A DNA stretch of 8,845 bases from Candidatus Iainarchaeum sp. (lineage in GTDB: Archaea; Iainarchaeota; Iainarchaeia; Iainarchaeales; GW2011-AR10): the NCBI GenBank assembly GCA_016186855.1, contig JACPKT010000075.1, positions 1 through 8,845 of the forward strand, read 5' to 3'. Position 1 is the first letter of the stretch. Each line of letters begins with the position of its first letter. Under the pieces are notes generated by a model. The model worked only from the letters and a program-made list of their open reading frames with translations, ran no database searches and had not been told where the DNA came from. Shown in pieces: positions 1,838-6,600 of the stretch. The translations under genes and the position numbers were made by a program.

Positions 1838-1924
1838 GCTTTATTGGTACAAAGCTAAAATGCCTTGTTTTTTGCAAAAAAAACCATTATTTTAAAGCTT
1901 GTGCAAAAAAATATGTTTGGTCAA

Positions 1925-2914
1925 ATGCAAAAAATCCTTGTAACGGGTGGAGCAGGCTTCATTGGAAGCAATTTTATCAGACACCTGCTTTCATTACAAA
2001 AAGAAATCGAAATAGTCAACTTTGACAAGCTGACTTATGCAGGAAACCTTGAAAACCTCCGTGATGTCGAACAAAACCCAAATTACTCTTTTTTAAAAGG
2101 CGACATTTGCGATGAAAAAACTGTGAAAAATGCAATGCAAGAAATTGAGGTGGTTATTAATTTTGCTGCAGAAAGTCATGTTGACCGGAGCATTTATGAT
2201 CCAGAATCTTTTATCCGTACAGACATGATTGGCGCACACGTTTTGCTTGAAGAGGCAAGAAGACAAGATGTCGAAAAATTTATTCAAATCAGTACCGATG
2301 AAGTTTACGGAAGCATTGAGAAACGAAAATTTTCTGAACGCAGCCCACTTAACCCAAGCAACCCTTATTCTGCATCAAAGGCTGGTGCTGACAGACTTGC
2401 TTACAGTTACTTCAAAACATATGGCTTGCCGATCATAATTACCCGAAGTTCAAATAATTTTGGGCCATACCAGTTTCCGGAAAAAATTATTCCACTTTTT
2501 ATTACAAATTTACTTTTGAAAAAAAAAGTTCCTTTATATGGTGACGGAAAAAATGTAAGAGACTGGCTGTTTGTTGAAGACAACTGCAGGGCAATTAGCT
2601 TGTGCATGCAAAAAGGAAAAAACGGGGAAACATACAATATTGGCGGAGGCAACGAAAAAACAAACATTGAACTGACAAAAATTATCCTAAAAGAGCTTGG
2701 ATTGGATGAAAGCAGGGTTGAGTTTGTTGCCGATAGACTAGGGCATGACAGGCGTTATGCGCTTGACTTTTCAAAAGTGAAAAAACTTGGCTTTCGGCCC
2801 TCAAAAAATTTTGAGCAGCAACTCAAAGAAACAATTCACTGGTATAAGAACAACCAAAACTGGTGGAAGCCATTAATTGAAAAAGCACAAATAAAAAGAG
2901 GAAAATTTAAATGA
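1925..2914 (+). CDS. rmlB: dTDP-glucose 4,6-dehydratase
   Basis: A 329-residue protein when started at ATG 1925, which puts the conserved N-terminus MQKILVTGGAGFIGSNF at residue 1, as in the family. An ATG at 1913 and a TTG at 1865 are in frame but only add unconserved residues. Features are NAD-binding GxxGxxG (G8, G11, G14), NFAAESHVDRS, the dehydratase triad STDE (T124, D125, E126) with YxxxK at Y148/K152 (YSASK), SSNNFGPYQFPEKIIP, and YGDGKNVRDWLFVED. These are diagnostic of RmlB rather than general epimerases. The enzyme converts dTDP-glucose to dTDP-4-keto-6-deoxyglucose in the cytoplasm and uses the product of RmlA, encoded two genes downstream. Its TGA stop overlaps the next ORF start as ATGA. 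Confidence 0.95.
   Translation: MQKILVTGGAGFIGSNFIRHLLSLQKEIEIVNFDKLTYAGNLENLRDVEQNPNYSFLKGDICDEKTVKNAMQEIEVVINFAAESHVDRSIYDPESFIRTDMIGAHVLLEEARRQDVEKFIQISTDEVYGSIEKRKFSERSPLNPSNPYSASKAGADRLAYSYFKTYGLPIIITRSSNNFGPYQFPEKIIPLFITNLLLKKKVPLYGDGKNVRDWLFVEDNCRAISLCMQKGKNGETYNIGGGNEKTNIELTKIILKELGLDESRVEFVADRLGHDRRYALDFSKVKKLGFRPSKNFEQQLKETIHWYKNNQNWWKPLIEKAQIKRGKFK
2896..2901 (+). promoter_or_regulatory. Ribosome binding site for the small ORF after rmlB
   Basis: AAGAGG lies inside the last codons of rmlB, 9 bases before ATG 2911. With the ATGA overlap it suggests the following ORF is translated, or was inserted behind a site that once served another operon gene. Confidence 0.5.
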
Positions 2915-3264
2915 ATGAGAATCTTAAATTCCCACCGGAAATGCACTGTTCCGAAAGCTATAACATAACTAAAAATCATATTGTTGAAATGCCAGCTAAA
3001 TATGAAATTGACAAATCGATAATTGAACAAGAATATTTTAAAAATAATAAATCGCAAGAAGAAATTGCAAATAAATTTGGAGTAAGTAAGACAAAACTTA
3101 CAAAAAACACTGCTTTGAGTAATCATTATGCACTTAGATACAGAGGAAAAAATCAAGCAATGAAGATTTTTGATTGGTTATATTTAAACAAAAAACATTC
3201 GTTAAAAAGAAAATATAAAAAATATTTAGAAATTAAAAGGAGGCGATATCTATTCGCGGAGTAA
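2911..3264 (+). CDS. HTH plus LAGLIDADG-endonuclease-like C-terminal tail; likely internally deleted homing endonuclease remnant
   Basis: An intact 117-codon ORF. Residues about 35-65 (IDKSIIEQEYF..NKSQEEIANKFGVSKTKL) form a clear helix-turn-helix. Residues about 71-108 (NHYALRYRGKNQAMKIFDWLY, then LKRKYKKY) resemble the last strand and helix of free-standing LAGLIDADG homing endonucleases, where a G..QA.KI.DWLY....L.RKY pattern is common. The catalytic core expected between these parts is absent, so nuclease activity is not expected; the fragment may still bind DNA. I judge the family from memory of its pattern, without a search. GC is about 24% over 2941-3240, against roughly 37% in rmlB and 45% in rmlA, consistent with foreign origin. 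It is coupled to rmlB (ATGA, with an AAGAGG site) and its last 13 bases overlap rmlA, whose ribosome binding site it contains. An unrelated small HTH protein is the alternative. Confidence 0.6.
   Translation: MNENLKFPPEMHCSESYNITKNHIVEMPAKYEIDKSIIEQEYFKNNKSQEEIANKFGVSKTKLTKNTALSNHYALRYRGKNQAMKIFDWLYLNKKHSLKRKYKKYLEIKRRRYLFAE
3238..3247 (+). promoter_or_regulatory. Extended Shine-Dalgarno sequence that decides the rmlA start
   Basis: AGGAGGCGAT matches 9 of 10 positions of AGGAGGTGAT, the complement of the conserved archaeal 16S rRNA 3' end. The AGGAGG core ends at 3243, leaving 8 bases before ATT at 3252, an ideal spacing. It is embedded in the end of the preceding ORF (AGG AGG arginine codons). 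No ATG, GTG or TTG occurs at the right distance, which is why ATT is called as the rmlA start. Confidence 0.75.
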
Positions 3265-3974
3265 TACTTGCAGGCGGGACAGGCAGTCGATTAAGACCAT
3301 TAAGTTTGGTTACAAACAAGCATTTGCTGCCGGTTTACAACAGACCCATGATTTATTATCCCATCAACACTCTGGTGCAGGCCGGAATAAAAGAAATCAT
3401 GATTGTGACTGGCACCGACCATGCCGGTGATTTTTTGAAGCTTTTGGGAAGCGGCAGGGAATTTGGAGTGAAGTTCACTTTTGAACTGCAGGACGGAGCA
3501 AAAGGAATTGCGGACGCCCTGAGGCTTGCGGAAGACTTCATTGATGGCGACAAATTTGCAGCAATTCTTGGCGACAACATTTTTGAGGACAACATCAGGC
3601 CGCAATTTGAAAATTTTTTGACTGAAAAAAAAATGGCAAAGATTTTTCTTAAAAAAGTGCCCGACGCACAAAGGTTTGGCGTTGCGGAACTGAAAGGAAA
3701 AGAAGTCGTGTCAATTGAGGAAAAGCCAAAAAACCCGAAAACAGATTTTGCCGTAACCGGATTGTACATGTATTCTGGTGACGTTTTTGATAAAATCAGG
3801 AAGCTAAAGCCGTCAAAGCGCGAGGAGTATGAAATAACTGACGTGAACAACGCGTACATTAGTGAAGGGCAGCTTTCTGCAGAAGTGCTAAACGGCTTTT
3901 GGAGCGATGCAGGAACATTTGAATCGCTTTTTCACGCAGCACAGTTGACCAGGCAAAAAGAGGGCGGAAAATAA
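3252..3974 (+). CDS. rmlA: Glucose-1-phosphate thymidylyltransferase, probable ATT start codon
   Basis: From ATT 3252 the protein is 240 residues and begins exactly where the family begins: (M)RGVILAGGTGSRLRPL, the nucleotide-binding signature. The frame is closed by TAA at 3234-3236, and the next conventional start, TTG 3306, would delete this essential loop. ATA 3246 is too close to the ribosome binding site. Other signatures are NKHLLPVYNRPMIYYP, ILGDN with metal-binding D108, IEEKPKNPKTDFAVTGLYMY, YEITDVNNAYI, and a C-terminal FWSDAGTFESL corresponding to the usual W.DTGT. The enzyme makes dTDP-glucose from dTTP and glucose-1-phosphate for RmlB. The length fits the short form lacking the long C-terminal extension of many bacterial enzymes. 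GC (about 45% over 3361-3780) is higher than in rmlB, hinting at separate ancestry. A sequencing error turning ATG into ATT is possible. Confidence 0.88.
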   Translation: MRGVILAGGTGSRLRPLSLVTNKHLLPVYNRPMIYYPINTLVQAGIKEIMIVTGTDHAGDFLKLLGSGREFGVKFTFELQDGAKGIADALRLAEDFIDGDKFAAILGDNIFEDNIRPQFENFLTEKKMAKIFLKKVPDAQRFGVAELKGKEVVSIEEKPKNPKTDFAVTGLYMYSGDVFDKIRKLKPSKREEYEITDVNNAYISEGQLSAEVLNGFWSDAGTFESLFHAAQLTRQKEGGK

Positions 3975-4919: not shown

Positions 4920-5618
4920 ATGAAAACAGTAATTTTGTGCGGAGGAAAAGGAACAAGAATGAGCGCTCTGACTGAAAAAATACCAAAACCGCTTGTGGCT
5001 ATCGGTGAAAAGCCTGTTTTGTGGCACATAATGAAGATTTATGCCTCACAAGGATTTGATAGTTTCGTTTTGTGCCTTGGGTATAAGGGTTCTGAAATAA
5101 AAAAGTATTTTGAAAAAAACAATTCAGAGAAATGGAAAATCGAGTTTGCAGACACAGGTGAAAACAGCACAAAAAGCCAAAGACTTGAAAAAGTCAAGAA
5201 ATTGATTTCAGACGAAAATTTTTTTTTAGCTTACGGGGACGACCTGTCAAATGTTGACCTGAAAAAATTGAAAAAATTTCACGAAAAAAACAAAAAAATA
5301 GTAACCGTAACTGCTGTAAAAATGGAATCACCGTTTGGCATTTTAGAAACGAATGCAAAAAACGAAATCATAAAATTTTATGAAAAACCCATTTTAGATT
5401 ATTGGTTGAACGGTGGATACATGGTTTTGAACAAGAAAATTTTTAACTACTTAAAGTTTGGGGAACTTGAAAAAGAAGTGTTTGAAAAACTTGTGCGAGA
5501 AAAAGAAATACAGGCATTCAAGCACTCTGGGGAATGGAAAACAATGAACACTTTAAAAGACAACCAAGAGCTAAATGAATTGTGGGAAAATGGAAAAGCG
5601 TTCTGGAAAATATGGTGA
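4920..5618 (+). CDS. rfbF: Glucose-1-phosphate cytidylyltransferase-like nucleotidyltransferase (RfbF family)
   Basis: A 232-residue protein from ATG 4920, which places MKTVILCGGKGTRM at the N-terminus as in the family; a weak AAGTGAT site precedes it by 4 bases. An in-frame ATG at 4782 would overlap the glycosyltransferase and add 46 unconserved residues. Diagnostic stretches are KPVLWHIMKIYASQGF, LCLGYKGSEIKKYF, FADTGENS..SQRLEKVK, YGDDLSNVD (metal site D107), VTVTAVKMESPFGILE, and the ending WKTMNTLKDN..LNELWENGKAFWKIW. These fit RfbF, which makes CDP-glucose from CTP and glucose-1-phosphate. It is about 25 residues shorter than typical RfbF (about 257) because the insertion between KKYF and WKIEFADTG is largely missing, so nucleotide or sugar preference could differ. 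A 59-base gap separates it from the gene before; the next gene follows after 4 bases. Confidence 0.82.
   Translation: MKTVILCGGKGTRMSALTEKIPKPLVAIGEKPVLWHIMKIYASQGFDSFVLCLGYKGSEIKKYFEKNNSEKWKIEFADTGENSTKSQRLEKVKKLISDENFFLAYGDDLSNVDLKKLKKFHEKNKKIVTVTAVKMESPFGILETNAKNEIIKFYEKPILDYWLNGGYMVLNKKIFNYLKFGELEKEVFEKLVREKEIQAFKHSGEWKTMNTLKDNQELNELWENGKAFWKIW
5614..5618 (+). promoter_or_regulatory. Ribosome binding site overlapping the rfbF stop
   Basis: GGTGA includes the TGA stop of rfbF and ends 4 bases before the ATG of the dehydratase at 5623. This is a typical archaeal arrangement for translational coupling and supports that start. Confidence 0.55.
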
Positions 5619-5622
5619 CTAA

Positions 5623-6600
5623 ATGAAAAATTTTTGGGAAGAAAAAAAGGTTTTTATAACAGGTGCAGACGGTTTTATTGGCAGTTGGGTTGCAAAAGAA
5701 CTCGTTGAGAAAAAAGCAAAAGTAGTCGCATTGGTAAGAGATTTAAAACCAGGCCTTGGATTTGACCTGCATGGCCTGCGTGATAGAATAACAATTGTGA
5801 ACGGAGATTTGGCAGACTTAAAGGTACTGCAACGAGCACTAAACGAATACGAGATTGACTCCGTTTTTCACATTGCAGCACAGGCAATCGTTGGAATTGC
5901 AAACAAAAGCCCTCTTTCAACTTTTGAATCAAACATCAAAGGCACATGGAACATTCTTGAAGCTTGCAGGTTAAACGATTCAATTCAAAGAATTGTCGTT
6001 GCAAGCTCTGACAAAGCTTATGGAGCGCAAAAACAATTGCCTTACACAGAAGAAAGTCCATTGTTAGGAATTTACCCATATGATGCATCAAAGGCTTGTG
6101 CTGACATCTTGGCGCGCTCATATTTTGCCACATACGGACTTCCGGTTGCAGTTACAAGGAATGCGAACACTTTTGGCGGGGGGGACATGAATTTTTCAAG
6201 GATAATTCCTGATGCTATCAAATGCCTGATTGATGGAAAAAAATTTGCCATCAGAAGCGACGGAACGCCTGAACGCGATTATATGTATGTGAAAGATGCT
6301 TCGAATGCCTATCTTGCTTTGGGAAAAGCGCTTGACAGAAAAGAATTGCACGGAGAAGCATTCAATTTCGGCACAGAAAGGCCCGTTAGTGTTGTTGAAT
6401 TATTCAAAAAAATTTCTTCGCTAATGGGAAAACCAAATGAACAGCCAGAAATTTTAGGACAGGCAAGGAACGAAATCGACACACAATACTTGTCAATCTC
6501 CAAAGCAAAAAAACTGCTTGGCTGGCAGCCAAAATATTCACTGGAAAAAGGATTAATGGAAACAATAGAATGGTACAGAAAGTTCTTCAAAAGCAAATAG
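5623..6600 (+). CDS. rfbG: CDP-glucose 4,6-dehydratase-like SDR enzyme (RfbG type)
   Basis: A 325-residue extended short-chain dehydrogenase/reductase. It opens with NFWEEKKVFITGADGFIGSW, whose FW..K.VFITG start is typical of RfbG; the glycine motif is G14/G17/G20. Further features are HIAAQAIV (83-90), the active-site SSDKAYG with S129-D130-K131 (the D-K pair replaces the D-E of RmlB, as in CDP-glucose dehydratases), YxxxK at Y153/K157 (YDASKACAD), NANTFGGGDMNFSRIIPD, and RSDGTPERDYMYVKD. The family converts CDP-glucose to CDP-4-keto-6-deoxyglucose, the branch point to several dideoxy- and deoxysugars. Position 4 bases after the cytidylyltransferase strongly supports the pairing. It is somewhat shorter than classical RfbG (about 355). 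A GDP-mannose-type dehydratase or another NAD-dependent epimerase/dehydratase is the alternative. No downstream RfbH or reductase for CDP-sugars is seen in the window. Confidence 0.75.
   Translation: MKNFWEEKKVFITGADGFIGSWVAKELVEKKAKVVALVRDLKPGLGFDLHGLRDRITIVNGDLADLKVLQRALNEYEIDSVFHIAAQAIVGIANKSPLSTFESNIKGTWNILEACRLNDSIQRIVVASSDKAYGAQKQLPYTEESPLLGIYPYDASKACADILARSYFATYGLPVAVTRNANTFGGGDMNFSRIIPDAIKCLIDGKKFAIRSDGTPERDYMYVKDASNAYLALGKALDRKELHGEAFNFGTERPVSVVELFKKISSLMGKPNEQPEILGQARNEIDTQYLSISKAKKLLGWQPKYSLEKGLMETIEWYRKFFKSK

Follow-up and report, generated by a model that had tools for sequence, protein, structure and literature searches.

A probable homing-endonuclease origin for an apparent AUU start codon in an archaeal rmlA gene

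The locus raises the question of how rmlA, whose conserved N-terminus is unbroken, is translated when no ATG, GTG or TTG lies in front of it. The window, the whole stretch of DNA analysed (8,845 nucleotides), corresponds to contig C38. The bin to which it belongs is fragmentary (817 kb in 160 contigs, 60% complete), and the window's relatives place this bin in the family of the archaeon GW2011_AR10 (Candidatus Diapherotrites). Its + strand carries rmlB, a 117-aa open reading frame (ORF), rmlA, a glycosyltransferase gene and further sugar genes. Diverging from the rmlB-rmlA block, a rmlD-like gene cut by the contig end (1-672) and one or more radical SAM/SPASM genes (708-1772) lie on the − strand. 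The features on which the question turns are as follows.

1865..2914, + strand: rmlB, dTDP-glucose 4,6-dehydratase (TIGR01181, 465 bits against a cut-off of 365)
2911..3264, + strand: remnant of an HTH-LAGLIDADG (LAGLIDADG_3) homing endonuclease, 117 aa, assigned from homologs and two separate profile matches
3252..3974, + strand: rmlA, glucose-1-phosphate thymidylyltransferase-like, 240 codons with no internal stop (PF00483, 200 bits)
3252..3254, + strand: ATT in the rmlA start slot, opposite the ATG of GW2011_AR10 in a gap-free alignment

The window protein belongs to PF00483, its gene adjoins rmlB and its best match among solved structures was 3hl3. Against the NCBIfam equivalog TIGR01207 it scored 244.9 bits, under the cut-off of 360.65, and it is therefore described as RmlA-like, short form, rather than as a certified equivalog. 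In the rmlA frame a TAA at 3234-3236 is followed by AAG GAG GCG ATA TCT up to the ATT at 3252-3254, after which CGC GGA GTA ATA CTT GCA is read; the earliest ATG, GTG or TTG is the TTG at 3306. The initial annotation, which proposed ATT as the start, had described this arrangement correctly. Among 29 relatives fetched, a canonical rmlA start was present in all 28 readable loci, L016 having been left out of the count because the contig end cuts the locus. A motif scan located the RmlA N-terminus in 54 of 80 named-genome loci (26 were unscored), and all 54 had a canonical codon no more than eight codons upstream of it.

Two further elements bear on the choice of start codon.

3238..3247, + strand: Shine-Dalgarno sequence AGGAGGCGAT, built from endonuclease K-R-R codons
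3246..3248, + strand: ATA, a rival start codon 2 nt past AGGAGG, which would read x-S-I-R-G

The nine matches in ten positions claimed for the Shine-Dalgarno sequence, and the 8 nt from AGGAGG to ATT, were both confirmed. Since no 16S rRNA was detected in the window's bin, the anti-Shine-Dalgarno sequence, CACCTCC, was taken from the 16S rRNA of GW2011_AR10, the end of which reads GGATCACCTCCT. Scanning of both strands of the window showed AGGAGGCGAT to be the sole match to AGGAGGTGAT with at most one mismatch. As a bare motif it was rejected as statistically notable, 0.28 such matches being expected by chance and at least one being present in 51 of 200 shuffles; it is the position of the sequence, not the bare motif, that counts. 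It lies within the coding end of ORF 2911-3264, a circumstance that the first reading had not noticed, and five archaeal relatives that also carry this gene upstream have an identical distance from the end of AGGAGG to the start. Archaeal tails of this endonuclease have K-R-R as their final conserved residues, encoded by AAA or AAG followed by AGG and AGG, with AGA as the last of these codons in GW2011_AR10. The start slot falls 8 nt past AGGAGR in six of six archaeal junctions (the window counted, with ATT taken as the start), and only the window lacks NTG in it. The strong ribosome-binding site need not compensate for ATT, as had been suggested earlier: the sequence is an endonuclease coding tail, equally strong before ATG, and adaptation to ATT was rejected as its explanation. 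The window's genome does not have such strong Shine-Dalgarno matches as a rule: of 53 genes sampled that share their start, 6 have an exact match of at least 6 nt.

The initial annotation had not considered ATA at 3246-3248, from which translation would yield M-S-I-R-G and make ATT an internal Ile codon. Starts two codons ahead of M-K-G do occur in relatives, namely ATG ACA ATT CGA GGA in L019, ATG ACA CTT AGA GGA in G026 and ATG GTA CTT CGT GGA in G050. In the sister lineage represented by endonuclease P0135 and RmlA protein P0002, described below, this register is compatible with NTA and with NTC, which encode Ile where N is A. However, the 2 nt between AGGAGG and ATA stand against the 8 nt of all six archaeal endonuclease junctions and are atypical among relatives, 19 of the 20 with a Shine-Dalgarno match of at least 5 nt having a spacing of 7-9 nt and L019 alone one of 2 nt. 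GW2011_AR10 has AAG at the position of ATA and ATG opposite ATT. AUA is no better than AUU as a start codon. The 8-nt spacing together with the ATG of GW2011_AR10 thus favours ATT, and initiation at ATA is unlikely.

The ORF that supplies the Shine-Dalgarno sequence can be divided as follows.

2998..3090, + strand: part of the remnant like the N-terminal HTH region (profile 3-33; 23 of 31 residues identical to P0135)
3079..3261, + strand: part like the C-terminal region (profile 222-276; 48 of 60 residues identical to P0135), ending K-R-R-R-Y-L-F-A-E
3262..3264, + strand: TAA stop of the remnant, its first base 10 nt past the first base of ATT

The TGA of rmlB (2912-2914) overlaps the ATG of this ORF (ATGA), and its 3' end extends 13 nt into rmlA. 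Neither a catalytic DG motif nor a match to PF14528 was found in ORF 2911-3264. With profile matches confined to 3-33 and 222-276, it lacks about 190 residues, among them the two catalytic motifs, through an in-frame deletion; it is a remnant and not an endonuclease. Directly before rmlA in GW2011_AR10 lies the gene for a 304-aa protein that matches PF14528 (LAGLIDADG_3) at 36.4 bits against a cut-off of 22.5, shows HTH matches only below the Pfam cut-off and has a distant match to I-HjeMI (3uvf, E = 1.2e-4). PF14528 was matched by three relatives, and both LAGLIDADG motifs are present in P0128, P0125, P0135 and P0129; P0135 is the nearest endonuclease to the remnant among the 119 listed relatives compared. 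An intron was rejected, no Rfam family reaching its gathering score in the window, as was an intein, the intein domain being absent from the three endonucleases scanned. Unlike in an intron or intein arrangement, the rmlA downstream of the endonuclease keeps its full N-terminus.

Some endonuclease match was found in 29 of 75 genomes of the window's order, and close homologs, defined as at least 54% identical to the GW2011_AR10 endonuclease, in six only. These are full-length in G001 (GW2011_AR10), G026 and G064, cut by a contig end in G041, and remnants in G000 (the window's bin) and G050. All six lie directly before rmlA, whereas the fetched stretches of the other 18 loci that matched the family profile contained no same-strand rmlA. 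In the bacterial phylum Omnitrophota a distant endonuclease was detected in 1 of 384 genomes, and in 2 of 11 genomes of that genome's order, the same one included. The two copies, full-length in G1250 and with a broken frame in G861, again lie directly before rmlA, with an ATGA overlap. The endonuclease thus abuts or overlaps the rmlA start in eight of eight genomes (six archaea including the window, two Omnitrophota): the overlap is ATGA in GW2011_AR10, G064, G861 and G1250, GTGA in G041 and TAATG in G026 and G050, and only in the window does the endonuclease frame continue past the start. The association of endonuclease and rmlA is specific. At the thresholds used, no endonuclease was found in 371 genomes from the phylum of a Pacearchaeota genome, 383 from the class of a Yanofskybacteria genome or 32 behind named loci; despite these empty searches, protein names put relatives of the endonuclease in Pacearchaeota, Woesearchaeota and Nealsonbacteria. 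Viral contigs examined with P0122 led nowhere.

Several decayed or possibly decayed copies were also seen. The G050 remnant (L122, G050:C54, 822-1001) is a 60-aa ORF, open in frame over the whole interval between the rmlB end and the TAATG shared with rmlA, and like that of the window it retains only the endonuclease tail. In the G861 copy (L162, G861:C21) the frame changes between the HTH and LAGLIDADG parts, so that it looks broken, and its tail still overlaps the ATG of rmlA. One frame before rmlA in L019 (G017:C40) reads R-K-Y-K-R-Y-L-D-Y and resembles a decayed endonuclease tail, although the profile gave no detection there.

Since the endonuclease frame overlaps the slot, the slot residue reveals the second and third bases of the rmlA start codon, assuming a tail free of indels. 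Of 27 proteins (P0121-P0147), 22 had tails that fitted the pattern; P0146 and P0147 were misparsed and 20 were used. Thirteen of these tails end at the slot or one codon before it, and four have Cys at the slot, as NTG requires. The window tail has Phe (TTC), hence ATT. Ser occupies the slot in P0135, which ends ..K-R-G-L-Y-L-S-A-E, and in the remnant P0122, which means that NTG is missing there because no codon beginning with TG encodes Ser. P0122 is another tail-only remnant, the ORF of which reads through the rmlA start slot. Both P0135 and P0002 come with a longest contig of 3906 and 2 contigs, and from these equal sizes and numbers they appear to lie on the same contig. P0002 is an unbroken RmlA of 243 aa with a 5' end closely similar to that of the window and likewise start-less; its start is predicted at a Val within the conserved motif, which is unique among the 120 listed RmlA proteins. 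By residue logic, the absence of NTG therefore appears to recur in this separate sister. Counting against the explanation preferred below, P0002 might begin at its own V3 codon, where the window has GTA and so is without this start. In the comparison of related genomes that had been proposed as a check on the ATT start, GW2011_AR10 has ATG at the junction and the P0135/P0002 lineage appears to be without NTG in the slot.

The apparent recurrence is the main argument against a sequencing or assembly error, by which the true base at 3254 would be G and the codon ATG. The condition of the bin invites such a reading, and the ordinary start predicted for P0001 (MSLKSKG), to which the window RmlA is closest overall, both favours an error and counts against the explanation preferred below. 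The frequency of lesions was gauged in a survey of starts in which 60 contigs and the window were compared with 64% of GW2011_AR10, giving 165 reciprocal best ORF pairs, 122 once shadow frames were removed and 102 tested at 40% identity or more. Twelve of the 102 ORFs were without a canonical codon close to the aligned start: rmlA itself, two broken genes, five with ATG or TTG slightly further in (the window's glycosyltransferase, L214, L145, L218 and L215) and four antisense to much longer ORFs. One broken gene (L149, G000:C8, about 5355-5648, − strand), which we take to be RNase P component-like, is conserved and is interrupted in frame by a stop codon at a position that is Glu in the relative; the stop is either genuine or an artefact of assembly. 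The other (L218, G000:C36, about 5386-5500, + strand), presumably prepilin-peptidase-like, changes frame near its N-terminus. By this reading, no conserved gene of the 102 other than rmlA is both unbroken and start-less, which speaks against an error at this one codon, but the apparent lesions in 2 of 102 genes keep a wrong base at 3254 among the candidates; we regard it as improbable.

The gene could instead be dead, or translated from TTG 3306 as a truncated protein, with another nucleotidyltransferase substituting for it. A start at 3306, the first canonical one available, would cost the protein its nucleotide-binding loop, and the bin does hold two further nucleotidyltransferase matches. 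The 240 codons are nevertheless stop-free and conserved throughout, the neighbouring rmlB is unbroken, and P0002 shares the start-less 5' end while being an otherwise different, unbroken RmlA. Loss of function is thus distinctly improbable. No start codon would be needed if a −1 ribosomal frameshift in the overlap fused the remnant to RmlA. Shine-Dalgarno-like sequences can stimulate frameshifting, and 3237-3261 is open in both frames; no convincing slippery heptamer was seen by eye, however, and the endonuclease frame of relatives ends no later than the rmlA start, so that a fusion is not ancestral. We consider frameshifting extremely improbable.

The best reading of these sequence data is that the start codon of rmlA is AUU, helped by a fixed Shine-Dalgarno sequence and by translation of the remnant. 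The choice of ATT made in the initial annotation is supported by the gap-free alignment with the ATG of GW2011_AR10, by the 8-nt spacing at six of six junctions and by the sister lineage that also appears to lack NTG in the slot. That annotation had also drawn an analogy with E. coli infC, which starts at AUU and is autoregulated through IF3. The initiator is shared, but infC is bacterial and no equivalent of the IF3 circuit was seen at the window rmlA. In archaea the start codon is proofread by aIF1, not IF3, and the host being an archaeon, the analogy is unsupported; nor was evidence found that low-efficiency initiation sets dTDP-glucose flux. According to one report, archaeal aIF1 destabilises non-AUG mRNA initiation complexes (PMC6237735), and weak initiation at AUU is therefore to be expected. 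A strong Shine-Dalgarno sequence and coupling may suffice for it.

A possible origin of this start is suggested by the composition of the protein, the 5' part of which differs in affinity from the remainder.

3252..3383, + strand: 5' part of rmlA, residues 1-44, a putative conversion tract, P0002-like where the remainder is P0001-like

The two best database matches of the window RmlA are P0001, 90% identical overall, and P0002, 79% identical. Over residues 1-33, 28 of 30 match P0002 and 26 of 33 match P0001, and after residue 33 the matches are 189 of 207 to P0001 and 158 of 207 to P0002. A site was treated as informative if the window shares its residue with only one of the two relatives (n = 53); position 4 was dropped because the residue of P0002 there is its predicted start. 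Up to residue 44, six of seven such sites follow P0002, and from residue 55 on, 39 of 46 follow P0001, which puts the inferred breakpoint between residues 44 and 55. The maximum chi-square of 16.3 was reached in 49 of 20,000 permutations, or in 97 of 10,000 with position 4 kept. As judged from protein sequences, with one pair of relatives (P0001/P0002) tested, the window RmlA is a mosaic. Endonuclease and rmlA front seem to share one source, other than that of the rmlA body.

Traces of insertion into rmlA were found in the endonucleases themselves. A profile search gave 155 relatives, of which 120 were listed, the window's own among these, and eight of the 120 (P0131, P0133, P0138, P0143, P0157, P0161, P0162 and P0172) are headed by the RmlA N-terminus, in register and at residues 1-4. 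The clearest are P0157 and P0161, in which the start of RmlA is kept through R-L-Y-P-L-T, the nucleotide-binding loop; P0133, with an 8-residue match, and P0131, which is loose, are weak, and P0211 was not counted, its score being about that of P0131 but its match out of register. In loci whose DNA was read, a complete rmlA follows the endonuclease. The rmlA start ahead of the endonuclease in the former copies and the complete rmlA after it in the latter loci are both explained by an inserted element carrying a new rmlA front. The idea that the endonuclease is preceded by a directly repeated rmlA 5' end was rejected at the DNA level: local alignment against 100 shuffles each revealed no such repeat in the six archaeal loci tested (window, GW2011_AR10, G026, G064, G050 and G041), all scores lying within the shuffle range.

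Taken together, these data suggest that the front of rmlA was probably replaced by the family of the upstream endonuclease, now a remnant, and that the ATT stands in the slot so delivered, which is the predicted start. Replacement of the rmlA 5' end is likely to be what this endonuclease family does. The endonuclease would cut rmlA somewhere in about its first 50 codons, and repair from a carrier would copy both the endonuclease and the donor's rmlA 5' end. The resulting rmlA would be recoded and uncleavable, and its translation would begin at a new start overlapping the stop codon of the endonuclease. The old rmlA 5' end of the recipient would stay in front, usable as the endonuclease's own start. 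The new start would be served by the internal Shine-Dalgarno sequence and by ribosomes terminating nearby. A later in-frame deletion in the window lineage would have removed the middle of the endonuclease and left its tail as the rmlA ribosome-binding site, so that ribosomes would still run through rmlB, remnant and rmlA, initiating at AUU beside their own termination point. Termination-reinitiation at overlapping genes has been reported for Haloferax volcanii and E. coli and is described for ATGA/TGATG overlaps in archaea and bacteria, where an internal Shine-Dalgarno sequence lets the terminating ribosome reinitiate (PMC6728339). The overlaps named there have AUG starts (PMC6728339), whereas the window has AUU, 10 nt upstream of the stop.

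The closest described case found is the WHO family of Torulaspora and Lachancea, which is related to the HO endonuclease. These elements home into FBA1 without splicing and exchange its 3' end with every homing event, so that the target becomes chimeric, leaving old gene-end fragments and decayed copies behind; cleavage of FBA1 was shown by experiment, in eukaryotic hosts (PMC7282813). The likenesses are that one end of a housekeeping gene is replaced, the window RmlA being mosaic at its 5' end (at protein level, for one pair), and that old target fragments lie by the endonuclease, an RmlA N-terminus heading 8 of 120 listed relatives. Unlike the WHO fragments, rmlA remains at the DNA level were not found in the six archaeal loci. 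The WHO proteins are HO/intein-like and directed at FBA1, whereas here the target is rmlA and the protein a PF14528 member with an HTH-like N-terminus (below cut-off). WHO elements lie downstream and replace the 3' end; here the end replaced would be the 5' one, and the endonuclease lies upstream, overlapping the start codon. The WHO hosts are eukaryotic and cleavage was assayed, whereas the hosts here are archaeal and bacterial. The rmlA endonuclease would thus work like WHO, mirrored, but is not a member, since it differs in its target, in the gene end affected, in the side on which it lies and in the domain of life, and its cleavage of rmlA is a prediction.

In a mitochondrial atp6 insertion of Allomyces, an endonuclease ORF reportedly travels with a replacement C-terminal gene end; endonuclease and replacement end are common to both cases, but the end replaced in rmlA is the 5' one. 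Free-standing homing endonucleases of phage T4 lie beside their targets, as the rmlA endonuclease does, and their flanks are co-converted, but they are intergenic, and to our knowledge they have not been described as delivering the start codon of the target. No description of an rmlA-directed homing endonuclease was found among the open-licence papers listed, and no prokaryotic case of such gene-end replacement was found by title among the matches listed.

More generally, we hold it evenly balanced whether archaea and bacteria harbour an endonuclease family dedicated to the rmlA 5' end, which takes the old start, brings a new start and a recoded front, and has the ribosome-binding site of rmlA as its last codons. 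The delivered start could then drift to AUU or AUC, because the built-in Shine-Dalgarno sequence and the ribosomes finishing the endonuclease support it, and the endonuclease could decay to its ribosome-binding tail. If this is true, a selfish gene replaces the front of an enzyme gene, takes its start codon and hands back a new one, an example of how parasitic DNA can change where translation begins with no splicing involved. The presence of AUU in a housekeeping gene, where gene finders expect ATG, would then be explained as well. Judging by the sister protein P0002, programs that predict starts would place them wrongly in such genes or overlook the genes.
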